From Terrabacter sp. Root85 (GTDB lineage: Bacteria > Actinomycetota > Actinomycetes > Actinomycetales > Dermatophilaceae), in NCBI RefSeq assembly GCF_001429185.1, contig NZ_LMIW01000012.1:62606-126605 (forward strand): a DNA stretch of 64,000 nt. The letters are read 5' to 3'. Below are positions 6,290 through 49,336 of this stretch, piece after piece (position 1 is the first letter of the stretch; every line of letters begins with the position of its first letter). The notes under the pieces are model-generated. The model was not told where the DNA came from and searched no databases. It was given only the letters and a program-made list of their open reading frames with translations. A program made the position numbers and the translations under genes.

Positions 6290-8326
6290 GTGGGCGACGA
6301 CGAGACCAAGCAGCGACCGGCCGGACGGCCGGTCGCTGCCGTCGTCGTGGAGACCCCGCTGGCGCACCTCGACCGCGTCTTCGAGTACGCCGTACCCGAG
6401 GAGCTCGATGCCGACGCCGTGCCCGGCGCGCGCGTGCGGGTGCGCTTCTCGGGTCGCGAGCTCGACGGCTTCGTCGTCGAGCGGCGGGACCAGCCCCTGC
6501 ACGACGGCCGGCTGACGCCGCTGCGCCGGGTCGTCAGCGCCGAGCCGGTGCTGACCCCCGAGGTCCTCGCCCTCTGCCGCGCCGTCGCCGACCGGTATGC
6601 CGGCACCCTGAGCGACGTCCTCCGCCTCGCGGTGCCCAAGCGCCACGCCACGGCCGAGCGCAACCTCCCGATGGAGTGCCCGCCCCAGGACGAGCTCGCA
6701 GCACCCGACCCCGGTGCGTGGGCGGCCTACCCGGCCGGGCCGGCGTGGCTGCGTCGGGTCGCCTCCGGGGAGGGTCCCGCCGCGGCGTGGACCGCCCTGC
6801 CGGGACGCGCAGGAGACGCGGACTGGCCGGCGGCGCTCGCCGTCGCCGTGGCCACGGCACTGGCCGCGGGCCGGGGCGCGCTCGTCGTCGTGCCCGACCA
6901 CCGGGACGTCGACCGGCTCGACGCCGCCCTGACCGCCGTGCTCGGCAAGGGGCGCCACGTGCGGCTCACCTCGGACCAGGGTCCGCAGGCGCGCTACACC
7001 GCTTGGCTCAAGGTGCTCCGCGGCCACGTCCGGGTCGTCATCGGCACGCGCGCGGCCGCCTTCGCCCCCGTCCACGACCTCGGCCTCGTCGCGTGGTGGG
7101 ACGACGGCGACGACCTGCTCGCCGAGCCGCGGGCGCCCTACCACCACGTGGGCGTCGTGCTCGGGCTGAGGGCGTCCGCGACCGGCGCCGCCCTGCTCAC
7201 CGGAGGGTTCGGGCGGAGCCTGCGCGTCCAGGTGGCCGTCGAGGCGGGCGCGCTCGTGCCGGTCGAGGCCGATGCCGCGACCGTGCGCGCGGCCGCACCA
7301 CGCGTCACCATCGCCGGTGAGGGGGTCGACGAGGAGCGCGACGGCCCGGCTTCCCGGGCCCACATCCCCTCACGCGCGTGGCGCGTCGCCAAGGACGCCC
7401 TCGTCGACGGACCGGTCCTCGTCCAGGTGCCGCGCCGCGGCTACCTGCCGTCGCTCAGCTGCGCCGAGTGCCGCACTCCGGTGCGGTGCGTGCGCTGCCA
7501 GGGGCCGGTGGCGCTCGGAGCCTCCGGGACGGCCCCGGCCTGCCGGTGGTGCGGCCTGGCGCTGAGCGGCCACGGCTTCGAGTGCGGCCACTGCGGCTCG
7601 CGTCGGCTGCGTTCCTCGATCACGGGCGCCCGGCGCACGGCGGAGGAGATCGGGCGCGCCTTCCCGGGTTTCCCGGTCCACACGTCGGGCTCCGGCGAGG
7701 TGCTCGCCGTCGTCGGGCGCGAGCCGTCCCTCGTCATCGCGACGCCGGGGGCCGAGCCGGTCGCCGACGGCGGCTACACCGCCGTGCTGCTGCTCGATGC
7801 GTGGGCGAGCCTGGACCTGCCCGTGCTCGACGCGCCGCTCGAGGCAGTGCGGCGGTGGATGGCCGCGGCGGCACTGGCCCGCGAGGGGCGTGCCGTGGTG
7901 CTGAGCGGCGCCCCGGAGGCCGTGGCGCTGCCGGCCGTCGAGGCGCTCGTGCGGTGGGACCCCGCCTGGCTCGCGGCCCGCGAGCTGGCGGAGCGGCGTG
8001 AGCTCGGCCTTCCGCCGGCCGTGCGCGTGGCCCAGCTGACCGGTGGCCGGCGCCCGCTCGAGGAGGCGCTCGGACAGGCCGACCTGCCCGACGTCGCCCA
8101 GGTGCTCGGCCCGGTCCGGCTCTCGCACGCGGGTGCACCTCCCCGCCGTGCCCCGGCCGACGGGGAGCTCGAACGTGCCGTCGCCGACCACCACGTGCTC
8201 GTCCGCGTGCCGGCCTCCGAGACCGAGTCGCTGACCCGGGCCCTGCTGGCGCTCAAGGCCTTCCGTTCGGCTCGCAAGGAAACGGACGTCGTGGCCGTGC
8301 GGGTCGACCCGCTCGACACGTTCTGA
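6290..8326 (+). CDS. priA: PriA-like primosomal protein lacking helicase motifs
   Basis: A 678-residue protein with the PriA 3'-DNA-binding domain at the N-terminus (VVETPLAHLDRVFEYAVPEEL, PGARVRVRFSGRELDGFVV) and the zinc-binding cysteine cluster near residues 391-440 (C..C...CVRC, CRWCG, CGHCG). The helicase domain is degenerate: no GxGKT Walker A is present, and the place of the DEEH box reads VAWWDDGDD. This loss is a known feature of actinobacterial PriA, so the protein probably acts in replication restart as a structural loader rather than as an ATP-driven helicase. The GTG at 6290 follows a -10 hexamer by 7 nt. The metK-priA-def-fmt order is common in this phylum. Confidence 0.9.
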   Translation: MGDDETKQRPAGRPVAAVVVETPLAHLDRVFEYAVPEELDADAVPGARVRVRFSGRELDGFVVERRDQPLHDGRLTPLRRVVSAEPVLTPEVLALCRAVADRYAGTLSDVLRLAVPKRHATAERNLPMECPPQDELAAPDPGAWAAYPAGPAWLRRVASGEGPAAAWTALPGRAGDADWPAALAVAVATALAAGRGALVVVPDHRDVDRLDAALTAVLGKGRHVRLTSDQGPQARYTAWLKVLRGHVRVVIGTRAAAFAPVHDLGLVAWWDDGDDLLAEPRAPYHHVGVVLGLRASATGAALLTGGFGRSLRVQVAVEAGALVPVEADAATVRAAAPRVTIAGEGVDEERDGPASRAHIPSRAWRVAKDALVDGPVLVQVPRRGYLPSLSCAECRTPVRCVRCQGPVALGASGTAPACRWCGLALSGHGFECGHCGSRRLRSSITGARRTAEEIGRAFPGFPVHTSGSGEVLAVVGREPSLVIATPGAEPVADGGYTAVLLLDAWASLDLPVLDAPLEAVRRWMAAAALAREGRAVVLSGAPEAVALPAVEALVRWDPAWLAARELAERRELGLPPAVRVAQLTGGRRPLEEALGQADLPDVAQVLGPVRLSHAGAPPRRAPADGELERAVADHHVLVRVPASETESLTRALLALKAFRSARKETDVVAVRVDPLDTF

Positions 8327-17393: not shown

Positions 17394-17400
17394 GGCTCTA

Positions 17401-17525
17401 CGTGCTCCGGGGTCGGTGTAATTCCGAGCCGGCGGTTAAAGTCCGCGACCCGACCGCATCCAGCGGCCGGTTGACCTGGTGAAATTCCGGGACCGACGGT
17501 GAAAGTCCGGATGGGAGGCAGCACG
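17401..17525 (+). ncRNA. FMN riboswitch (RFN element)
   Basis: The conserved FMN aptamer core is clear: GGGGTCGG, AATTCCGAGCCGGCGGTTAA, AGTCCGCGACCC, GGTGAAATTCCGGGACCGAC, GGTGAAAGTCCGGATGGGAG. The P1 stem is CGTGCT (17401-17406) with AGCACG (17520-17525). Downstream, CAGGCC/GGCCTG (17529-17545) and GTCCGG/CCGGAC (17563-17576) are candidate expression-platform hairpins. FMN binding is expected to reduce expression of the transporter and rib genes that follow. Confidence 0.96.
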
Positions 17526-17528
17526 AAA

Positions 17529-17576: not shown

Positions 17577-17644
17577 CGCGTGGGCGTGTGGAGTCACCCC
17601 GGAGTTCGTCCGTGCCACGACGAACGACCAAGGACGAACACCAC

Positions 17645-18403
17645 ATGCAGGCTCTTGCTCTGGCCGACGAGACGAAGAACGTCTTCCAACAGGCCATCGA
17701 CGCCACCATCCCGATCGGCCAGTACCAGCTGCACTGGCTCGAGCTCATCGGTGTCCTCATCGGGCTCGCGTCCGCCTACCTCGGCATGCGCCGGTGGGTC
17801 CTGGCCTGGCCGGTGGGGATCCTCGCGAACATCATGCTGTTCTTCGTCTACCTCGGTGCCGTCTTCGGGGCCGACGAGCGCATCCCGCTCTTCGGTCAGG
17901 CCGGCCGGCAGGTCTTCTTCATCATCACGAGCATCTACGGCTGGTGGCGCTGGTCGCAGGTCCGCAGGCTCAACCACGCCGACGACTCGAGCGGTGTGGC
18001 GATCACGCCTCGCTGGGCCACGAGCCGCGAGCGCGTCGCCGTCGTCGTCTTCTGGCTCGTCGGCACGGTCGTCGTGCACCAGGCCTTCGTCTGGCTGTGG
18101 AACCTCTCGCCGAACCCGTTCTTCACGCCCGAGTGGTGGTTCTACTGGTGCGACGCCTGGATCTTCGTCGGCTCGATCGTCGCGACGTACGCCATGGCGC
18201 GCGGCTGGAACGAGTTCTGGCTGGCCTGGATCGCTGTCGACCTCGTCGGCGTGCCGTTCGCCTTCGCGACCGACTACGTGCCGACCGGTGTGCTGTACAC
18301 CTTCTACGGCCTCTTCGTCATCTACGGCTTCACCCAGTGGGTCAAGGTGTCACGGGTCGCCGAACGCGACGTCGAGCCGCAGCTGACCGGGACGTCGAGC
18401 TGA
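17645..18403 (+). CDS. ribM: Riboflavin transporter, PnuC-like (PnuX/RibM)
   Basis: A 252-residue membrane protein of the PnuC family with about seven helices: WLELIGVLIGLASAYLGMRR, WPVGILANIMLFFVYLGAVFG and SIYGWWRWSQVRR, with the Trp-rich substrate region of the family. In actinobacteria, PnuC-like proteins under an FMN riboswitch carry riboflavin (PnuX/RibM) rather than nicotinamide riboside, and the riboswitch here supports that role. The ATG at 17645 follows AAGGA by 10 nt; a GTG at 17588 would add a basic, unlikely extension. ribD starts 4 bp after its stop. Confidence 0.88.
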   Translation: MQALALADETKNVFQQAIDATIPIGQYQLHWLELIGVLIGLASAYLGMRRWVLAWPVGILANIMLFFVYLGAVFGADERIPLFGQAGRQVFFIITSIYGWWRWSQVRRLNHADDSSGVAITPRWATSRERVAVVVFWLVGTVVVHQAFVWLWNLSPNPFFTPEWWFYWCDAWIFVGSIVATYAMARGWNEFWLAWIAVDLVGVPFAFATDYVPTGVLYTFYGLFVIYGFTQWVKVSRVAERDVEPQLTGTSS

Positions 18404-24032: not shown

Positions 24033-24511
24033 GCCGACGAGGCCGTCGCCCGGGAGTCGGTGCCGTCCACCAGGCCGTCCCACGACCACTGCGGCACGGT
24101 CAGGCCGTCGGGCACGTCGTCGGCCGATCCGTGGTAGGTGCTCATGTAGCCCACCGCCCAGCTGAAGTACGCGACGAGCGCGTCGCGCACGTCCGGGTCG
24201 TCGGAGAGTCCGGCGTCCTCGACGGCTCGCTCGAAGCACTCGAGCGCCCGCTCGTCCATCTCCTGGTGCGGACCGTTGCCGGAGTGCAGCCGCACGACCG
24301 TCGACTCGCTCGCCACGGAGCCCGAGTAGGTGGGCGGGCCGCCGAGCGCCTCGGCCCAGTACGCCGCGAGCCGCATGGTGTGGTCGGGGTGGAAGCCGTG
24401 CGAGAAGGCGTGCGACACGACGGGGTCGACGAGGACGCGCTCGTGCCAGGCGTGAGCGAGGGCGACGAGCGCGGGCATCCCGCCGACGGCGTCGTAGATG
24501 GTCCGTGTCAC
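24020..24511 (-). CDS. Truncated hemoglobin-like protein
   Basis: A 163-residue protein resembling truncated globins: TRTIYDAVGGMPALVALAHAWHERVLVDPVVSHAFSHGFHPDHTMRLAAYWAEALGGPPTYS, with a His in HPDHTMRLA near the proximal position. Proteins of this type bind oxygen or NO, or act as oxidoreductases. I chose the GTG at 24511 because GGGAG stands 8 nt upstream; an ATG at 24538 is the alternative. It overlaps the flavin reductase gene tail to tail, and flavin reductases can supply electrons to globins, but a functional link is only a guess. Confidence 0.8.
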   Translation of the reverse strand: MTRTIYDAVGGMPALVALAHAWHERVLVDPVVSHAFSHGFHPDHTMRLAAYWAEALGGPPTYSGSVASESTVVRLHSGNGPHQEMDERALECFERAVEDAGLSDDPDVRDALVAYFSWAVGYMSTYHGSADDVPDGLTVPQWSWDGLVDGTDSRATASSAQPQ

Positions 24512-24548
24512 CGTCGCAGGCTCCCATCCCGCGGGCAACGCGACAAGG

Positions 24549-24573
24549 CCTCGGGACCGCAGGGGTCCCGAGG
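24549..24573 (-). terminator. Hairpin terminator of the IPT/TIG-CHAP gene
   Basis: A perfect 10-bp stem (CCTCGGGACC / GGTCCCGAGG) with a 5-nt loop lies 9 bp downstream of the stop of the large minus-strand gene and before the globin gene. Confidence 0.65.
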
Positions 24574-24581
24574 GCTCTCTG

Positions 24582-27500
24582 TCAGCGGAAGTGGATGAAG
24601 TTCGAAGGCCAGGAGTAGCCGCCTCGCTCGAGGATGCGCCGACCGCTCATCGACGTGTACGTCGCGCCGAGGACCGTTCCGCCGTAGCCGCTCTCGGAGA
24701 TCGCGACGGTGTCGCCGTCGGCACTGACCCAGTCCACGTACGCGACGTGGTTGGAGTTCCACTGGGCGATGTCGCCGACGCGGGGCTTCTGGTCGACGGC
24801 GAAGCCCTTGGCCCGGGCGTTCGTGTCCCAGTTCGTCGCGTTGCCGAGGTTGCCGGGGTTCTTGACCCCGTCACGCGAGAGGCGGTACGCGGAGAAGTTC
24901 GTGCAGTTGTTGCCCCACGGGTCGACGGGGTAGTTCCACGCGCGCTGGCCGTAGTAGCCGAACCGCTCGATGCAGTCCTGGGTCGCACGGGAGTAGCACT
25001 TCCAGCCGGTGGGTGCCGGGCCGCCGGTGATGGCCCAGGTGACGGTGGTGGAGCGGTAGATGGCGACGTTGGCGTTGCCGAGCACGCGCACCACCGACCC
25101 GCTCCCGCTCGTCCGGGTCGACCACAGCGTCACCCCGCGCGAGTTGCGCACGACGAAGTTGCCGTCGGTCTGCATCGTGGCCGTGCTCCCGGCACCCGTC
25201 GTGAAGGCCGCCCACTGGCGCACTCCGGCGGCGGAGGTCAGCACGAGGTTGCCGTCGGTGCGCATCGTCAGCAGCCACGCCTTGCTCGTCGACAGGATCG
25301 ACTCGCCGGAGCGCAGCACCTGGCCGGGCAGCATCCGGTCGTAGCGGTAGCCACGGTGGTCCCACACGGTCGTCGTGCCCTGGCGTACCTGGAGCAGGCC
25401 GTCGTTGGTCAGCGTGAGCAGGCCGCCCGTCCAGCCGGTGGTCCCGCTCGACCACGCGACCGTGCCGTTGGTGCGGAGCATGACGACGTTGCCGTCGGCT
25501 CGGACCGCGAGGCGGTTGCCTGCGCCGGTCGTGCCGCTCGTCCACCGTCGGACACCTGACGAGGTGCTGATGACGAGGTTGCCGTCCGCCTGCATCGTTG
25601 CGAGGTACGCCCCCGTGGCTGACCGCAGCGCAGTGCCGGACGAGAGCCACTGGCCGGACCGCAGCGTCGCGCCGGCGACGTAGGTGAAGCCGTCGGTGCG
25701 CACGACGGTGCCGGCGCGCGTCGTGACGCGGATCGGGATCGGGCCAGTGGCGATGCGGGCCGGGACCGCCGCGGTCAGCTGGGTGACCGAGACCCGGGTG
25801 AACGAGGTCGCCGCGACACCGTTGAAGAGGACGTCGCGCACGTCGGTGAACGACGTGCCGCGCAGGGTGACGACCGTGCCACCGGCCAGCGGACCTGAGG
25901 CCGGCGAGACCGAGGCGACGACGGGCGGGTCCTGGAAGCTGAAGCGGCCCGCGGGAACGACGGGCGAGGTGCCACCGGGAGTCGTGACGCGCACGTCCAC
26001 GTCAGCCTCGGCGTGGACCGGCAGGGTGACCCGCAGCTGGGTCGCCGAGAGGCGCGTCACCGCGGTGGCGGCGACGCCGCCGAACGTCACGGACGAGACG
26101 CGGTCGTAGGCCGTCCCGGTGAGGACGACCGTGCCGCCGCCCTTCGTGGGTGCCAGGGAGGGGGAGACCGCCGTGACGGTCGGCACGGCCTGGTAGGTGA
26201 ACCGAGCGGCAGCGGCGGCCGGCGACACGCCGCCGGGAGTCGTGACGCGGACGTCGACCGTGCCGACGGCCTGGGCGGGTGCCGTGACCCGCAGCGTCGT
26301 GTCGGACACCCGGACGAGCCCGGTGCCGGCCACGCCGCCGAAGTCCACGCCCGTCGCGAGGCCGAGGCGGGTGCCCGTGACGGTGACGACGGTGCCGCCG
26401 CGCAGCGGCCCCGCCGGGACGGACAGGGCGGACACGGCGGGCACGCCGACGTAGGTGAACCGCCCGCCCGCGGACTCGGGGCTCGTGCCGTTGGGATTGG
26501 TGACGCGTACGGACACCGTCCCCTCGGGCTGCGCCGGGGCGGTGACCCGGAGGCTGGTGTCCGAGACGCGCACGAGACCGGTGGCGGCGACGGCGCCGAA
26601 GCGGACCGCGGTGGCGTCGGACAGGTGGGCGCCGGTGATCGTCACGACCGTGCCGCCGCGGAGCGGGCCCGCCGTGGCGGACAGCGCGCCGACGACCGGA
26701 GGCGAGCCGTAGGCGAAGCGGGCGCCGACCCCGGTGGCAGAGGTGCCCCCCGGGGTGGTGACCTGGACGTCGACGGGTCCGGAGGCGTGGCGCGGCGTCG
26801 TGGCGCGCAGCGTCGTCGCTGAGACGCGGACGAGGTTGGTCGCCGCGACCGAGCCGAAGCGGACGGCGGTCGCCCGGCTCAGACCCGTGCCGGTCAGCGT
26901 CACGACGGTGCCCCCGGACGGAGGACCCGTCTGGGGGGACAGGGAGGTGATGGCCGGGACCGGGTCGAACGCGAAGGTGCTCGACGTGTGCTCGGGCGAC
27001 GTGCCGTACGGGGTCGTCACGGTGACGGCGACCACCCCGGCCGCGTGGGCGGGTGTCGTGGCCCGGATGCTTGTGGCCGACACGAAGGTGAAGCGTGCGG
27101 GCGTACCGCCGAAGTCGACGCGGGTCACGCCCGTGAACCGGGTCCCGGTGAGCGTGACGACGGTGCCACCACGGACCGGTCCGGCGGTGGTCGACAGCGA
27201 CGCGACGGCCGGCGGTGCCTGGTAGCCGTAACGGGCTCGTGAGGTCACGGCCGAGGTGCCGCCCGGGGTGGTCACGCGTACGTCCACGGTCCCCACGGGA
27301 CGCGCCGGCGTCGTGACCCGGAGCGCGGTCGCCGAGACCGGCACGACCTTCGTCGTGGCCGTGGAGCCGAACGCGACGCTCGTGGCCCGGCTGAGACCGG
27401 TGCCCGTCAGGGTCACGGTGACCCCACCAGCCGTGGGGCCCGAGGCGGAGGAGATCCCAGTCAGGGTCGGAACCGTTTCGTAGGCAAAGCTGTTCGCGGA

Positions 27501-28439
27501 GTAGCCGTACGAGATGCCGGCGGCGGTCCGGACGTGCACGTTGACGAGGCCGGCGGGGCGGGCCGGTGAGGTGACGCGGAGCTGGGTCGCGGACAGCACC
27601 GTGAAGCGGGCCGTCGTCGCGCCGAAGGTCACCGCGGTCGCGCCCGTGAACCGGGTGCCCGTCAGGGTCACGACCGTGCCCCCGCGCAGCGGACCGGCGG
27701 AGACGGAGAGGCCCGTCACCATCGGCGGGGTGACGACGGGGGGAGCGGTGTAGGTGAAGCGGGCGCCGGAGGCCACCGGGGAGGTGCCGCCCGGCGTCGT
27801 GGCGCGGACGTCGACGGCGCCCGCCGCGTGTGCCGGGACCGTGACGCGGACCTGCGTCGCCGACAGGCGGGTGAGGCCCCCCGCGGGGGTGGTGCCGAAG
27901 AGCACGGCGCTCGTGCGGTAGAGCCCGGTGCCGGTCAGCGTCACGGTGGTGCCGCCGCGCGTCGTGGCGGAGCGGGACGACAGGGAGGACACGGACGGGA
28001 CGGCGTCGAAGGCGAAGGTCGCGCGTGACGAGATGGGCGACGTGCCGGCCGGGGTGGCGACGCGGACGTTGACCACGCCGAAGGGGTGGGCGGGAGTGAC
28101 GACCCGGACGCGGGTGCTCGAGACCTTCGTGATGCGGGTGACGGCGGTCGAGCCGAACCAGGCCGTCGTCGTCGCGCCCACGCCGGTGCCCGACAGCTCG
28201 ACGGTCGTGCCGCCTCGGGTCGGGCCCGCCACGACGGACAGGCTGATCGCCGTGGGGGCGGCGGCGAGGGACGGTGCCGCGACGGCGGTGACGGAGGCCG
28301 CGGCTGCCGTTGGCGCGGTCGCGAGTCCCGGCACTCCGGCGAGGAGGGCCGTCACGACGAGGCCGGAGAGCAGGCGCCCGGTCGTCCTGCGGTCGACGTC
28401 GCGGTCTCGCTCGGGCAGCGGGGTGTGGCGGGGCAGCAT
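24582..28439 (-). CDS. Secreted multi-domain protein: signal peptide, ten IPT/TIG repeats, lectin repeats, CHAP domain
   Basis: A 1285-residue exported protein. A signal peptide (hydrophobic LLSGLVVTALLAGVPGLA, cleavage near residue 48) is followed by ten IPT/TIG immunoglobulin-like repeats of about 85 residues (roughly 60-920), each with the form AGP.RGGT.VTLTGT, then a conserved V.FG. strand and VDVRVTTPGGTSP. Residues about 925-1140 carry bulb-lectin-like repeats (MQADGNLVIS, VRADGNVVML, MRTDGNLVLT, MQTDGNFVVR). The C-terminal CHAP domain has Cys1179 (NNCTNFSAY) and His1231 (NSNHVAYVDWV), the expected catalytic pair of a peptidoglycan amidase or endopeptidase. The ATG at 28439 has AAGGAG 8 nt upstream. 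It is probably a cell-wall hydrolase or surface adhesin. Confidence 0.9.
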   Translation of the reverse strand: MLPRHTPLPERDRDVDRRTTGRLLSGLVVTALLAGVPGLATAPTAAAASVTAVAAPSLAAAPTAISLSVVAGPTRGGTTVELSGTGVGATTTAWFGSTAVTRITKVSSTRVRVVTPAHPFGVVNVRVATPAGTSPISSRATFAFDAVPSVSSLSSRSATTRGGTTVTLTGTGLYRTSAVLFGTTPAGGLTRLSATQVRVTVPAHAAGAVDVRATTPGGTSPVASGARFTYTAPPVVTPPMVTGLSVSAGPLRGGTVVTLTGTRFTGATAVTFGATTARFTVLSATQLRVTSPARPAGLVNVHVRTAAGISYGYSANSFAYETVPTLTGISSASGPTAGGVTVTLTGTGLSRATSVAFGSTATTKVVPVSATALRVTTPARPVGTVDVRVTTPGGTSAVTSRARYGYQAPPAVASLSTTAGPVRGGTVVTLTGTRFTGVTRVDFGGTPARFTFVSATSIRATTPAHAAGVVAVTVTTPYGTSPEHTSSTFAFDPVPAITSLSPQTGPPSGGTVVTLTGTGLSRATAVRFGSVAATNLVRVSATTLRATTPRHASGPVDVQVTTPGGTSATGVGARFAYGSPPVVGALSATAGPLRGGTVVTITGAHLSDATAVRFGAVAATGLVRVSDTSLRVTAPAQPEGTVSVRVTNPNGTSPESAGGRFTYVGVPAVSALSVPAGPLRGGTVVTVTGTRLGLATGVDFGGVAGTGLVRVSDTTLRVTAPAQAVGTVDVRVTTPGGVSPAAAAARFTYQAVPTVTAVSPSLAPTKGGGTVVLTGTAYDRVSSVTFGGVAATAVTRLSATQLRVTLPVHAEADVDVRVTTPGGTSPVVPAGRFSFQDPPVVASVSPASGPLAGGTVVTLRGTSFTDVRDVLFNGVAATSFTRVSVTQLTAAVPARIATGPIPIRVTTRAGTVVRTDGFTYVAGATLRSGQWLSSGTALRSATGAYLATMQADGNLVISTSSGVRRWTSGTTGAGNRLAVRADGNVVMLRTNGTVAWSSGTTGWTGGLLTLTNDGLLQVRQGTTTVWDHRGYRYDRMLPGQVLRSGESILSTSKAWLLTMRTDGNLVLTSAAGVRQWAAFTTGAGSTATMQTDGNFVVRNSRGVTLWSTRTSGSGSVVRVLGNANVAIYRSTTVTWAITGGPAPTGWKCYSRATQDCIERFGYYGQRAWNYPVDPWGNNCTNFSAYRLSRDGVKNPGNLGNATNWDTNARAKGFAVDQKPRVGDIAQWNSNHVAYVDWVSADGDTVAISESGYGGTVLGATYTSMSGRRILERGGYSWPSNFIHFR

Positions 28440-28614
28440 TCGTCCGTCTCCTTGCAGTCAGCACGTCCGGCGAGCATTCTGCACAGGCAAATCGTCCTTT
28501 GTACGCCGTTTCGCCCTAATTGGCTCGTCCCAAGCGCACCACGAGCCCCAGATGTGGGGGTCGGGAGGCGAACGACCGGTTCGGTCCCGGCGTCACCCGA
28601 CCCTCACGTGGCGC
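28440..28614. other. Intergenic region upstream of the CHAP gene
   Basis: This 175-bp stretch lies between two minus-strand genes. It holds the Shine-Dalgarno of the CHAP gene and an AT-richer patch at about 28487-28523 (read on the minus strand it includes ATTAGGGCGAAAC and CAGAAT), the likely promoter. I see no riboswitch core here. Confidence 0.4.
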
Positions 28615-29814
28615 TCACTCCACGCGGCGCAGGTCGGGCCGCAGCCGCTGGACGACGAAGAGCTGGACGACCCCGATCGCGGCGAGGATGCCCCAGACGA
28701 GCGACAGGCTCCCGGTGACGTCGCGCACGAGCCCCATCGCCAGGGGTCCGATCGAGGCGAGGCCGTAGGAGATGAGGAACGCCATGCCGGTCAGGCGCCC
28801 GCTCGCCTCGGGGGTGCGGGCGTAGCGCACGAGGAGCACGAGCGCGAGGGAGAAGGCGGCGCCCTGGCCGAGCCCGGTGACGACCGCCCACACCCACGGC
28901 GCCGAGAGTGGTGCGACCCAGATCCCGACGGAGCCGGCGATCCCGAGCACCGCGGCCAGCCACAAGAGACGGCGCATGTCCCGGGTGCGGTCGCTGACCA
29001 CGGGGCCGAGCAGGCCAGAGACGATCTGGGCCCCGCTGAAGACCGCGGCGAGGTAGCCGGCAGACCCCCGTGACCATCCGTGCTCGACGTACGTCGGGGC
29101 GAGCCACGTGACGGCCGAGTAGAAGCACCACGACTGCAGGGTGAGGTAGCCGGCGACCAGCCAGGCCGTGTGGTGCCGCCACGGCAGCCGGCCCGGGCCT
29201 TCCTCGTCCGGCGTGTGGTGCGGGTTGGCGCGCAGGGTGAACGGCGCCCACGCGAGGGCACCGACGAGGGCGATGACCGACCACGAACCCAGCGAGGCCT
29301 GCCAGCTGCCGAGTCGGTCGGCGAGCGGCACGGCGAGCGCCGAGCTGAGGGCCGCCCCACCCATCATCGCGAGCATGTAGAGGCCCGTGACGAGACCGGT
29401 CCGCTCGGGTGGGAAGAAGGTCTTGACGAGTCTCGGCAGCAGTGTGCCGGCGACGGCGATCCCGACGCCGCAGAGGAAGGTCCCCGCGTAGAGCACGACG
29501 ACGTGGTCGCCGGCGAAGCGGCTGGCCGTGCCGACGAGGATGCTGATGACCGCTCCGAGCACCGCAGCGGCCGCCCCGGTGCGGTGGGCGATCCGGCTCG
29601 CGACGGGCGCGAAGAGCCCCATGCAGAGGACCGGCAGGGTCGTGAGTGCCCCGGCCGCGGCGTGGCTGAGGCCGAGGTCGGCGGAGATCGCGTCGAGCAG
29701 CGGAGGGACGCTCGTGATCGCGATCCGGAGGTTCGCGGCGACGGCGACGAGCGCGAGGGCCATGACCCAGACGGGCGGCAGGGGGCGGAGCGGTCGGTCT
29801 CGTCGAAGCACCAT
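28615..29814 (-). CDS. MFS transporter, CynX/NimT-like
   Basis: A 399-residue 12-helix transporter of the CynX/NimT family: VWVMALALVAVAANLRIAITSVPPLLDAISADLGLS, GALTTLPVLCMGLFAPVASRIAHRTG and FLCGVGIAVAGTLLPRLVKTFFPPERTGLVTGLYMLAMMGGAALSS are characteristic. Members export cyanate, nitroimidazoles or other small compounds; the substrate here is unknown. Its ATG overlaps the stop of the upstream kinase gene by one base (TGATG), so the two are made together. Confidence 0.9.
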   Translation of the reverse strand: MVLRRDRPLRPLPPVWVMALALVAVAANLRIAITSVPPLLDAISADLGLSHAAAGALTTLPVLCMGLFAPVASRIAHRTGAAAAVLGAVISILVGTASRFAGDHVVVLYAGTFLCGVGIAVAGTLLPRLVKTFFPPERTGLVTGLYMLAMMGGAALSSALAVPLADRLGSWQASLGSWSVIALVGALAWAPFTLRANPHHTPDEEGPGRLPWRHHTAWLVAGYLTLQSWCFYSAVTWLAPTYVEHGWSRGSAGYLAAVFSGAQIVSGLLGPVVSDRTRDMRRLLWLAAVLGIAGSVGIWVAPLSAPWVWAVVTGLGQGAAFSLALVLLVRYARTPEASGRLTGMAFLISYGLASIGPLAMGLVRDVTGSLSLVWGILAAIGVVQLFVVQRLRPDLRRVE

Positions 29815-44609: not shown

Positions 44610-44770
44610 GTCTCACGATTCGGAATCCGCCGTATCAACAGGTAGGACGAGCGGTCCCTCCGATATCGTCGTCAGCAACGCCTGTGGCCAGTGCCGTCCA
44701 CATGCCCTCAGTCATGTCGCGTGGCCCCGTCGCGGTCGCCCGCCTGGGACCCAGCAGAAGGACGGTGAAG

Positions 44771-47700
44771 ATGCCGCCGCACACCCGCACCCGTGCCCTC
44801 TTCAGTGCACACCCGGAGAACTCCGGTCTCTACCGACGCGAGTTCGAGCACGACGCCTGCGGTGTCGCCCTCATCGCGACGATGCGGGGGACGGCCGGTC
44901 ACGACATCGTCGACCACGCCCTCACGGCACTGCGCAACCTCGACCACCGTGGTGCCACGGGCGCCGACCCGCTCGTCGGTGACGGCGCGGGCATCCTGAC
45001 GCAGATCCCCGACGAGTTCTTCCGGGCGAACGTCCCCTTCACGCTCCCCAACAGCGGGGCGTATGCCGCCGGCATCGCCTTCCTGCCCCCCAACCCCATC
45101 GAGCGGGCCGCCGCCAAGGCCCGCATCGAGGAGATCGCGGTCGCCGAGAACCTCAAGGTGCTCGGCTGGCGCGAGGTCCCCGTCGAGGCCGACCTCGTCG
45201 GCACCGTCGCGCGCGACTGCATGCCGTTCTTCGAGCAGCTCTTCGTCAGCAGCTCGATCGGCCGCCAGGTGGCCCTCGGACTCGACCGCCTCGCGTTCTG
45301 CCTGCGCAAGCGCGCCGAGCACGAGGTCGACGTCTACTTCGCCTCGCTCAGCTCCCGCACCATCGTCTACAAGGGCATGCTGACGACCGGCCAGCTCGAG
45401 CCGTTCTTCCCCGACCTGTCGGACCCGCGTTTCGCGAGCGAGCTCGCCCTCGTGCACTCGCGTTTCTCGACCAACACGTTCCCGTCGTGGCCCCTCGCGC
45501 ACCCGTACCGGTTCATCGCCCACAACGGCGAGATCAACACCGTCAAGGGCAACCGCAACTGGATGCACGCACGCGAGAGCCTGCTGACGTCCGACATCAT
45601 CCCGGGCGACCTCGAGCGGATCTTCCCGGTCTGCACGCCGGAGGCGTCCGACTCGGCGAGCTTCGACGAGGTGCTCGAGCTGCTCCACCTCGGTGGCCGT
45701 TCGCTCCCGCACGCCGTGCTCATGATGATCCCCGAGGCGTGGGAGAACCACGCCACGATGGACCCCGCCCGCAAGGCCTTCTACGAGTTCCACTCGACCT
45801 TCATGGAGCCGTGGGACGGCCCGGCCAACGTCTGCTTCAGCGACGGCACGCTCGTCGGGGCGGTTCTCGACCGCAACGGCCTGCGTCCGGGCCGCTACAC
45901 CGTCACCGACGACGGCCTCGTCGTCCTCGCGTCGGAGTCCGGGGTGCTCGAGCTCGACCCGCGGACCATCGTCCAGCGGGGCCGGCTGCAGCCCGGGAAG
46001 ATGTTCCTCGTCGACACCGAGCACGGCCGCATCGTCAGCGACGAGGAGATCAAGAGCCAGCTCGCGGCCGCCAAGCCGTACGCCGAGTGGCTCCACGCCG
46101 GTCTCATCCGCCTCGAGGACCTTCCCGAGCGCGAGCACATCGTGCACACGGCCGCCTCGGTCGCCCGGCGCCAGCAGACCTTCGGCTACACCGCCGAGGA
46201 GCTGCGCATCCTGCTGACGCCGATGGCCCGGTCGGGTGGCGAGGCGCTCGGCTCGATGGGCACCGACACGCCCATCGCCGTCCTGTCGTCGCGGCCACGC
46301 CTGCTCTTCGACTACTTCACCCAGCTCTTCGCGCAGGTCACCAACCCCCCGCTCGACGCGATCCGCGAGGAGCTCGTCACCTCGCTCGGCACGTACATGG
46401 GCCCGGAGGGCAATGCGCTGTCGGCGTCCCCGAGCCACGCCCGGCAGCTCGTCCTCGACTTCCCCGTCATCGACAACGACGAGCTCGCCAAGATCGTGCA
46501 CATCAACGCCGACGGCGACCTGCCCGGCTACGCCACGCACGTCGTCCGCGGCCTCTACGACGTCACCGGGGGAGCGGCCGCCATGCGCGACCGCCTCGAG
46601 GAGATCTTCGCCGAGGTCTCGCAGGCGATCCGCCGCGGAGCCCGCTTCGTCGTGCTCTCCGACCGCGACTCGGGCCGTGACCTCGCGCCCATCCCGTCGC
46701 TGCTGCTCACGGCTGCCGTCCACCACCACCTCATCCGCGAGAAGACCCGCACCCAGGTGGGTCTGCTCGTCGAGGCCGGCGACGTGCGCGAGGTCCACCA
46801 CGTGGCCCTGCTCATCGGCTTCGGTGCCGCCGCCGTCAACCCCTACCTGGCCATGGAGACCGTCGAGGACCTCGTCCGGGCGGGCGAGATCGAGGGCGTC
46901 ACGGCCGAGAAGGCCGTCGCCAACCTCATCAAGGCGCTCGGCAAGGGTGTCCTCAAGGTCATGTCCAAGATGGGCATCTCGACCGTCGCCTCCTACCGCG
47001 GCGCCCAGGTCTTCGAGGCCATCGGCCTGGCCCAGCCGCTCGTCGACCGCTACTTCACGGGCACCGTCAGCCAGCTCGGCGGCGTCGGCCTCGACGTCAT
47101 CGCCCGCGAGGCGGCCGAGCGCCATGCCCGGGCCTACCCGCCGGACGGCGTCCACCAGCCGCACCGCACCCTCGAGGTGGGCGGCGAGTACCAGTGGCGC
47201 CGCGAGGGCGAGCCGCACCTCTTCGACCCCGAGACGGTCTTCCGCCTCCAGCACTCGACGCGCCAGCGCCGCTACGACATCTTCAAGCAGTACACGGGGC
47301 GCATCGACGACCAGACGTCCCGGCTCATGACGCTGCGCGGTCTCATGGGCTTCCGGCCGACCGGGGTCACGGGCCGGCTGCCCGTGCCGATCGAGGAGGT
47401 CGAACCGGTCAGCGAGATCGTCAGGCGCTTCAACACGGGGGCGATGAGCTACGGCTCGATCTCCAAGGAGGCGCACGAGACCCTCGCGATCGCGATGAAC
47501 CACCTCGGCGGGCGCTCCAACACCGGCGAGGGCGGCGAGGACATCGACCGGCTGCTCGACCCCGAGCGCCGCTCGGCCGTCAAGCAGGTGGCGTCCGGAC
47601 GCTTCGGCGTCACGAGCCTCTACCTCACCCACTCCGACGACATCCAGATCAAGATGGCGCAGGGCGCCAAGCCCGGCGAGGGCGGGCAGCTGCCCGGGCA

Positions 47701-49336
47701 CAAGGTCTACCCGTGGGTGGCCAAGACGCGGCACTCGACGCCCGGCGTCGGGCTCATCTCGCCGCCCCCGCACCACGACATCTACTCGATCGAGGACCTG
47801 GCGCAGCTGATCCACGACCTCAAGAACGCCAACCCGGCGGCGCGCATCCACGTCAAGCTCGTCTCCGAGATCGGTGTCGGCACGGTCGCGGCGGGCGTGT
47901 CCAAGGCGCACGCCGACGTCGTGCTCATCTCCGGCCACGACGGCGGCACGGGCGCCTCGCCGCTCACCTCGCTCAAGCACGCGGGCGCGCCGTGGGAGCT
48001 CGGCCTCGCCGAGGCCCAGCAGACCCTCGTGCTCAACGGCCTGCGCGACCGCATCGTCGTCCAGGTCGACGGGCAGCTCAAGACCGGTCGCGACGTCGTC
48101 GTGGCTGCGCTGCTCGGTGCCGAGGAGTTCGGCTTCGCCACCGCTCCGCTCGTCGTCTCGGGCTGCATCATGATGCGCGTCTGCCACCTCGACACCTGTC
48201 CGGTCGGCATCGCGACCCAGAACCCCGAGCTGCGCTCGCGCTTCTCCGGCAAGCCGGAGTTCGTCGAGACCTTCTTCGAGTACATCGCGGAGGAGGTGCG
48301 TGAGCACCTGGCCTCGCTCGGCTTCCGCTCGATCGAGGAGGCCGTCGGCCAGGTCGGCAGCCTCGACCTCGACAAGGCCATCGCGCACTGGAAGGCGTCC
48401 GGCCTCGACCTCAGCCCCATCCTCGCCGTCGCCGACAACCCGACCGGTGGCACGCTCCACCAGTCGGCCACGCAGGACCACGGGCTCGACAAGGCGCTCG
48501 ACAACGAGCTGCTGAGCCGCGCCCTGTCGGCCATCGAGTCCGGCGAGGCGGTGCGCACCGAGATCGCGGTGCGCAACGTCAACCGCACCGTCGGCACGAT
48601 GCTCGGCCACCACGTGACCAAGGCGCACCCGCACGGTCTCGCCGACAACACGATCGAGCTGACGATGACCGGGTCCGGTGGGCAGTCCTTCGGCGCCTTC
48701 CTGCCGGCGGGCGTCACGATGCAGCTCTTCGGCGACGCCAACGACTACGTCGGCAAGGGACTGTCGGGCGGCCGCGTGGCCGTCCGGCCGCACCGCGAGG
48801 CCACCCTCGTTGCCGAGGAGAACGTCATCGGTGGCAACGTCATCGCCTACGGCGCGACGACCGGGCAGCTCTTCCTGCGCGGCATCGTCGGCGAGCGCTT
48901 CTGCGTGCGCAACTCCGGCGCCCATGCGGTCGTCGAGGGTGTCGGCGACCACGGCTGCGAGTACATGACCGGTGGCACGGCCGTCGTGCTCGGCCGGACC
49001 GGTCGCAACTTCGCGGCCGGCATGTCCGGTGGCCTCGCCTACGTCCTCGACCTCGACGCCGACCTCGTCAACCGCGAGATGGTCGACCTCATGCCACTGC
49101 GGCCCGACGACGAGGGGCCGCTCCGAGAGCTGCTCGAGGGCCACGTCAGGTGGACCGAGTCGCCGGTCGCGCGAGCGCTGCTCGACGACTGGGCGGCGGC
49201 GCGCGAGCGCTTCACGCTCGTGCTCCCGCGCGACTACCAGCGTGTCCTCGACGTCCGGACCGAGGCCGAGGCGCAGGGCCTCGACCTCGACGGACCCGAA
49301 GTGTGGAACCGGATCATGGAGGCTTCCCGTGGCTGA
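44771..49336 (+). CDS. gltB: Glutamate synthase (NADPH) large subunit
   Basis: A 1521-residue enzyme that makes glutamate from glutamine and 2-oxoglutarate. With the ATG at 44771, Cys30 ([13 protein letters not shown]) is the N-terminal nucleophile of the glutaminase domain, exposed after removal of a 29-residue propeptide. The FMN domain has the block [27 protein letters not shown], followed by the 3Fe-4S cysteines in [19 protein letters not shown]; the C-terminal beta-helix ends near [25 protein letters not shown] at 44756-44762 supports the start; an open extension to 44684 lacks a site. About 200 bp of leader precede it. Confidence 0.95.

Follow-up and report, generated by a model that had tools for sequence, protein, structure and literature searches.

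What is the role of a secreted protein that carries a putative wall-cutting domain behind a long row of immunoglobulin (Ig)-like repeats and a lectin pair, and on whose wall would it act? The question is raised by a 1285-residue protein encoded in a 64,000-nucleotide stretch of the Terrabacter sp. Root85 genome (contig NZ_LMIW01000012.1, positions 62,606 to 126,605; hereafter the window, in whose coordinates features are given). The reading that we favor, and which we regard as marginally probable on the features of the sequence, is that of a secreted peptidoglycan hydrolase that would act on the producer's own wall, where a rod of constant length and an altered lectin pair would hold it. The parts of this protein are all well known; their combination alone is new.

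The gene is a single long open reading frame (ORF) on the minus strand (24582–28439; 1285 residues plus stop), with an ATG start and an AAGGAG motif 8 nt 5' of it; a preliminary description had given its extent and length correctly and left the strand unstated. From N to C terminus, the product comprises an export signal, ten TIG repeats, two B-lectin stretches and a C-terminal CHAP domain, and the TIG, lectin and CHAP composition proposed earlier is recovered by Pfam with all three families above their cut-offs: TIG (PF01833) in ten stretches at 362 bits (cut-off 20.9), B_lectin (PF01453) in two stretches at 37.4 bits (cut-off 32.4), and CHAP (PF05257) over residues 1169–1250 at 52.2 bits (cut-off 26). 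The NCBIfam model CoaZ_rpt_PGGG likewise matches ten stretches (220 bits). On the same strand, residues 1–65 (28245–28439) form the N-terminal export signal, called from the sequence by eye, with its linker; they are the least conserved part in the orthologue alignment and by eye show neither a conserved twin-arginine nor a lipobox. The TIG repeats, mostly 85–86 residues each, occupy residues 66–910 (25710–28244), the tandem B-lectin (bulb-lectin) pair residues 911–1145 (25005–25709), and the CHAP region residues 1146–1285 (24585–25004), which include Cys1179, His1231 and Glu1249 as well as the conserved Cys1148 and Cys1156. The chain stops right behind CHAP, and reading by eye agrees with the earlier remark that a sortase motif or other anchor is not seen in the 1285-residue protein.

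The gene is genuine and beyond chance: eight orthologues of 1284–1298 residues, found by scanning genome contigs with the CHAP part, keep its frame and domain order under purifying selection; they come from Terrabacter (five), Terracoccus, an Intrasporangiaceae bacterium and a Dermatophilaceae metagenome-assembled genome. Within the genus, 9 of 9 Terrabacter-genus genomes carry it in full or nearly so (matched from query residue 1, 2 or 18 to 1285), a set that overlaps with the named orthologue records (at least four contigs agree in length) and is not independent of them. Across a family sample of 99 genomes, the full-length gene was found in three, all of the Terrabacter genus, with separate TIG, lectin or CHAP matches in 29 others and no match in 67, whereby the genome searches scored the top few candidates per genome and a missing match does not amount to proven absence. 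In a class sample of 394 genomes, own genome included, the lectin-plus-CHAP part was matched somewhere in 93 and the CHAP profile in 45. That class CHAP-profile search returned 57 rows outside the own genome, of which 48 were examined and nine weak ones (E 5e-8 or worse) left out. Among 75 CHAP ORFs from family and class loci (64 when those alike over the final 100 residues are counted once; two belong to the genome of the window), none carried TIG or lectin beside CHAP by profiles built from genus sequences, which recover TIG in 2/2 and lectin in 4/4 chosen positive loci; Pfam found neither domain in four of these ORFs (L018, L082, L092, L094). Four candidate joinings of lectin and CHAP outside the genus (G451, G032, G098, G149) were rejected, as they carry CHAP only. 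The order is thus rare and genus-bound within the samples searched, and its description as unusual was well founded, the combination being confined to the Terrabacter genus in the family and class samples. Literature searches, which largely exclude subscription journals, returned no paper joining a CHAP domain to a TIG domain or to a bulb-type lectin; broader searches gave no title on the signal/TIG/lectin/CHAP architecture among the matches listed, and the sole match for Terrabacter with CHAP domain was, in the accessible part of the source, the word 'Terrabacteria' in a phage-peptide table (PMC8068337).

The CHAP domain is the most constrained part of the protein. Its identity to the eight orthologues is 86–99%, compared with 69–92% for the TIG array and 67–92% for the lectin part, and in a simple Nei–Gojobori count over eight pairwise comparisons its ratio of nonsynonymous to synonymous substitution (dN/dS, 0.02–0.21) lies under that of the TIG array (0.18–0.33) and of both lectin halves (0.12–0.48) in 8/8 comparisons, the signal-peptide part being looser (0.29–0.97). 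Cys1179 and His1231 stand at the positions first assigned to them, Glu1249 comes after, within ISESGY, and all three are invariant in nine sequences; we take them to be the catalytic residues, as in other CHAP domains. The assignment of the C-terminal domain to CHAP is upheld by sequence, since besides the Pfam score a CHAP-alignment profile matches 2lrj (4e-12), PcsB (7e-11) and 2k3a, a 'CHAP domain protein' (1e-9), and more weakly by fold, the first two Protein Data Bank (PDB) matches of the model being 2lrj (E 1.5e-4, TMq 0.37) and the amidase 5t1q (E 0.012, TMq 0.44), with the remainder resembling chance. Structure prediction, named earlier as a check, gave no non-CHAP outcome, from a model that is weak around the catalytic Cys. 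The protein shares with CHAP wall hydrolases (PF05257; 2LRJ, 2K3A, PcsB) the profile match above cut-off and the Cys/His/Glu set, and differs from them in its accessory parts.

In a CHAP tree of 45 rows (nine of the genus and 36 from outside, with rows under 55 bits and identical rows dropped), the genus sequences come together as a single clade (100/100), which shares a group of 16 rows with seven CHAP domains of the same family (95/89); the branching order within that group is unresolved. The closest relatives in the family (L018–L022) bear CHAP close to the N-terminus, and the sequence behind it is of another kind, with recognizable repeats. An actinobacterial protein, L082, joins CHAP to four Ig-like Big_3_5 stretches, so that a hydrolase coupled to an Ig rod is in itself not new; it differs from the Terrabacter protein in its reversed order, in its Ig family and in that no lectin was found in it. 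A second CHAP protein of about 570–615 residues, in which CHAP lies toward the N-terminus and the long remainder is repeat-like, occurs in the own genome (L003, on C8) and is matched in 8/8 other genus genomes (L040–L047).

Nothing points to a phage or plasmid setting. A phage origin of CHAP was rejected, as 70 pattern matches in viral contigs yielded no confirmed relative by the CHAP alignment, and a phage collection searched with the CHAP protein gave three weak records (37–44% identity over 58–74%); both phage searches covered the CHAP part of the protein. A phage endolysin was likewise set aside, given the lack of close phage CHAP relatives and neighbors that include globin and MFS genes. 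A plasmid origin was rejected as well: none of 65 matching plasmid records covers 80% of the query, and in the 25 listed the match lies within the TIG part.

The TIG array, at 845 of the 1285 residues, amounts to two thirds of the chain and has kept its length, with ten repeats in all nine proteins compared and 0–10 gap positions over 845 residues against the eight orthologues. Repeats inside the window protein are mutually 35–70% identical, yet in 684 of 720 comparisons the best match of a repeat in another protein carries the same index. The array of ten is therefore older than these orthologues, and no repeat has been gained or lost among them. Ten TIG domains would span some tens of nanometers. 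A more far-reaching version of the own-wall reading, which we consider rather unlikely, would see here a hydrolase on a molecular ruler, in which selection has kept ten TIG domains so that CHAP, docked by the lectin, sits at a defined depth or height relative to the wall, the lectin has changed from mannose-type binding to recognition of a wall glycan specific to the genus, and the leader is dedicated and nearly invariant. Elsewhere in the own genome (L088; C8, 1132337–1132711, minus strand), a further TIG stretch with at least two near-identical repeats contains unread bases.

By sequence, the solved structures closest to the lectin pair are those of the tandem plant lectin SCAfet, of pyocins L1 and L2, and of putidacin L1. 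The structure model of the pair has a confidence (pLDDT) of 71–93 across most blocks of ten residues, the exceptions being the first block (39) and one other (62). Single B-lectin domains from the PDB fit this model at TMt of about 0.8; the tandem structures 1dlp, 4led and 4gc1 lead by E-value and fit badly across both domains (TMq 0.23–0.24, root-mean-square deviation 13–20), and pyocin L1 and LlpA are among the first Foldseek matches. Like LlpA, pyocin L1 and SCAfet, the protein has two tandem B-lectin domains; unlike it, they are without CHAP or TIG. According to the accessible part of one review, full LlpA activity needed intact copies of the family sugar motif QxDxNxVxY, motifs that are often hard to make out in active LlpA lectins (PMC6240691). 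The Terrabacter protein differs from LlpA in having none complete. When motifs with both Asp and Asn are counted, the nine genus proteins hold 35 (four each, three in L012), none of them ending in Tyr, and two sites retain Gln, Asp, Asn and Val in every protein; the control, 21 of 22 lectin-bearing ORFs from beyond the genus, has a terminal Tyr in 56 of 71 motifs, of which 54 also have the Gln. A sixth site, LGNANVAIY in the window protein, retains the Tyr in most proteins, without Gln and Asp. Given the lack of a complete motif, canonical mannose binding by the pair appears doubtful, and mannose cannot be assumed as its partner; glycan binding itself is putative. The lectin-mediated targeting to glycans suggested in the preliminary description is weakened by a canonical sugar motif that is incomplete at every site.

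The gene has a conserved position. An MFS gene adjoins it upstream in 8/8 orthologue loci, followed by a P-loop-containing ORF in 7/8 (no Pfam hit; kinase-like by our reading) and a hisF-like gene in 6/8; downstream, globin and flavin-reductase-like genes are found in 6/8, names without a Pfam match being our own assignment. In one locus (L009), the globin, flavin-reductase-like, PH-like and hisG-like genes present in six other loci were not found within 6 kb downstream of position 6354, and this side seems rearranged. In the six loci with both genes, lectin and globin identities are 89.8/93.2, 91.5/88.2, 91.9/93.0, 77.9/75.7, 76.2/74.4 and 79.1/70.6%; the identity of the lectin tracks that of the adjacent globin, and no speed-up of the lectin is therefore seen.

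Conservation extends upstream of the start codon, where about 120 bp are well conserved (89% mean column identity) and the remaining spacer aligns poorly. Within this region, a 36-nt leader on the minus strand (28447–28482), ending 7 nt 5' of the ATG, is identical in eight of nine upstream sequences, the ninth differing by two changes; with up to three mismatches allowed, the genome holds a single copy. In a synteny comparison with four genus genomes, one of them aligned across 54% of the window only, the leader was among three separate 36-mers counted as non-coding and identical in all, a count based on an incomplete gene list, in which at least two windows counted as non-coding are coding by place (21829, 19442). 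The other two 36-mers are one that overlaps a flavin mononucleotide (FMN) riboswitch and one that is coding by its place. A second conserved block, CAATT.GGGCGAAA..GC.TACAA (28499–28522, minus strand), is perhaps a promoter or operator. For the leader we assume a promoter plus leader under strong control, a promoter/operator or a leader RNA both being possible from the sequence. It has no Rfam match, and consensus inspection of 24400–28640 revealed neither a sigma-70-type promoter nor a terminator. A riboswitch upstream was rejected (at E≤5, 9.5 kb gave one match at the level of chance, outside the leader), an unusually stable RNA fold was not supported (z −0.16, ordinary fold energy), and an imperfect DNA palindrome (9/14; P about 0.002 for one site, uncorrected for the choice of center) is too weak to mark the leader as an operator.

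Taken as an enzyme of the producer's own wall, the protein would be exported by its signal peptide, its CHAP domain would cut peptide bonds of peptidoglycan by means of Cys1179, His1231 and Glu1249, the adjoining lectin pair may dock it on a wall glycan that is probably not plain mannose, and the ten TIG domains may act as a rod of constant length, keeping the catalytic end at a distance or in position, whether inside the wall or beyond it. The earlier proposal of a peptidoglycan hydrolase on a stalk stands as far as the CHAP profile and the Cys/His/Glu set go, the cutting being argued from the family and the spacer function of the stalk put forward as a suggestion. In the accessible part of its description, the wall of Intrasporangium calvum, placed by that paper in the same family, contains LL-diaminopimelic acid and a triglycine bridge (PMC3035309), so that both amide and glycyl bonds would be on offer. 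Action on the own wall is favored because of genus-wide carriage, conserved position, constraint on CHAP and the absence of a lectin speed-up; the same-family CHAP clade, phage matches that are weak only, the lack of a plasmid record covering 80% of the query, the agreement of repeats by index and the constraint on the leader were counted as further support.

Several observations weigh against this reading. The CHAP model is of low confidence (mean pLDDT 56, below 50 over its residues 1–43 with the catalytic Cys), a weakness that stems from a shallow alignment; the fixed count of ten is drawn from this one array; docking is weakly founded as long as no lectin site in nine proteins has the complete motif; and the downstream neighbors were not found in 2/8 loci, one of which (L012) has only 1.9 kb downstream. 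Moreover, the protein may leave the cell, as no anchor is seen by eye, and a basic housekeeping enzyme would hardly be expected in a single genus.

The foremost rival, unlikely in our estimate and still to be taken seriously, is a secreted bacteriolysin in which the lectin pair would aim CHAP at the glycans of other bacteria and the TIG rod would bridge the gap; the lack of a visible anchor would suit it. The tandem lectin does resemble lectin-like bacteriocins, through its Foldseek matches to pyocin L1 and LlpA and a score of 99.4 bits to the NCBIfam lectin-like bacteriocin LlpA model LLB_putidacin (NF033557), which stays below the cut-off of 275; according to the accessible part of another source, LlpAs are said to need no immunity factor (PMC6465234). 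A precedent exists in albusin B, which, as described in the accessible part of the review, joins a B-lectin to a peptidase domain in a Gram-positive bacterium, with the peptidase belonging to another family (M15) and no TIG array mentioned (PMC6240691). UmbA4 of the Streptomyces umbrella particles, another known system that bears comparison, is a secreted actinobacterial protein with a bulb lectin, and differs in having a trypsin-like domain and a teichuronic acid-binding beta-propeller, CHAP and TIG being unmentioned in the part of the paper at hand (PMC13274773). Carriage in 9/9 genus genomes is nonetheless at variance with the roughly 4–5% of Pseudomonas strains that have llpA-type genes, by the same partial view of the review (PMC6240691). 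Nor does the lectin evolve faster than the neighboring globin gene, and the complete sugar motif is absent from the pair.

A released muralytic enzyme, by which the bacterium would feed on wall debris or dead cells in soil and whose lectin and rod would attach it to the debris, is quite unlikely: an export signal without an anchor seen by eye would suit it, as would the joining of B-lectin arrays to other enzymes in related bacteria (tyrosinase in L023, a metallopeptidase-like domain in L050), but no adjacent gene singles out such a role. Least likely, indeed very improbable, is an adhesin or surface fiber whose CHAP is inactive or serves merely to trim the insertion of the protein itself in the wall, a notion prompted by the bulk of the TIG array and opposed by the conservation of CHAP with its invariant Cys, His and Glu.

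Beyond this locus, the FMN riboswitch (17399–17527, plus strand, 94 bits), which together with a tRNA is all that the window yields at gathering scores, precedes a gene with an NMN-transporter (PnuC-type) domain (17588–18403) that, by its setting, is likely a riboflavin transporter. A strongly conserved stretch (44636–44671, plus strand; 0.986 over four genomes) lies just 5' of the glutamate synthase large-subunit gene (44684–49336).

Should the own-wall reading prove untrue, the protein would represent a lineage-specific shuffling of well-known secreted domains, mainly of use for annotation. If it is true, changing the number of repeats in a harmless soil bacterium could show how the length of the rod affects a wall hydrolase, and the lectin pair would provide a natural case of a bulb lectin that has kept its fold while its standard sugar site was lost.

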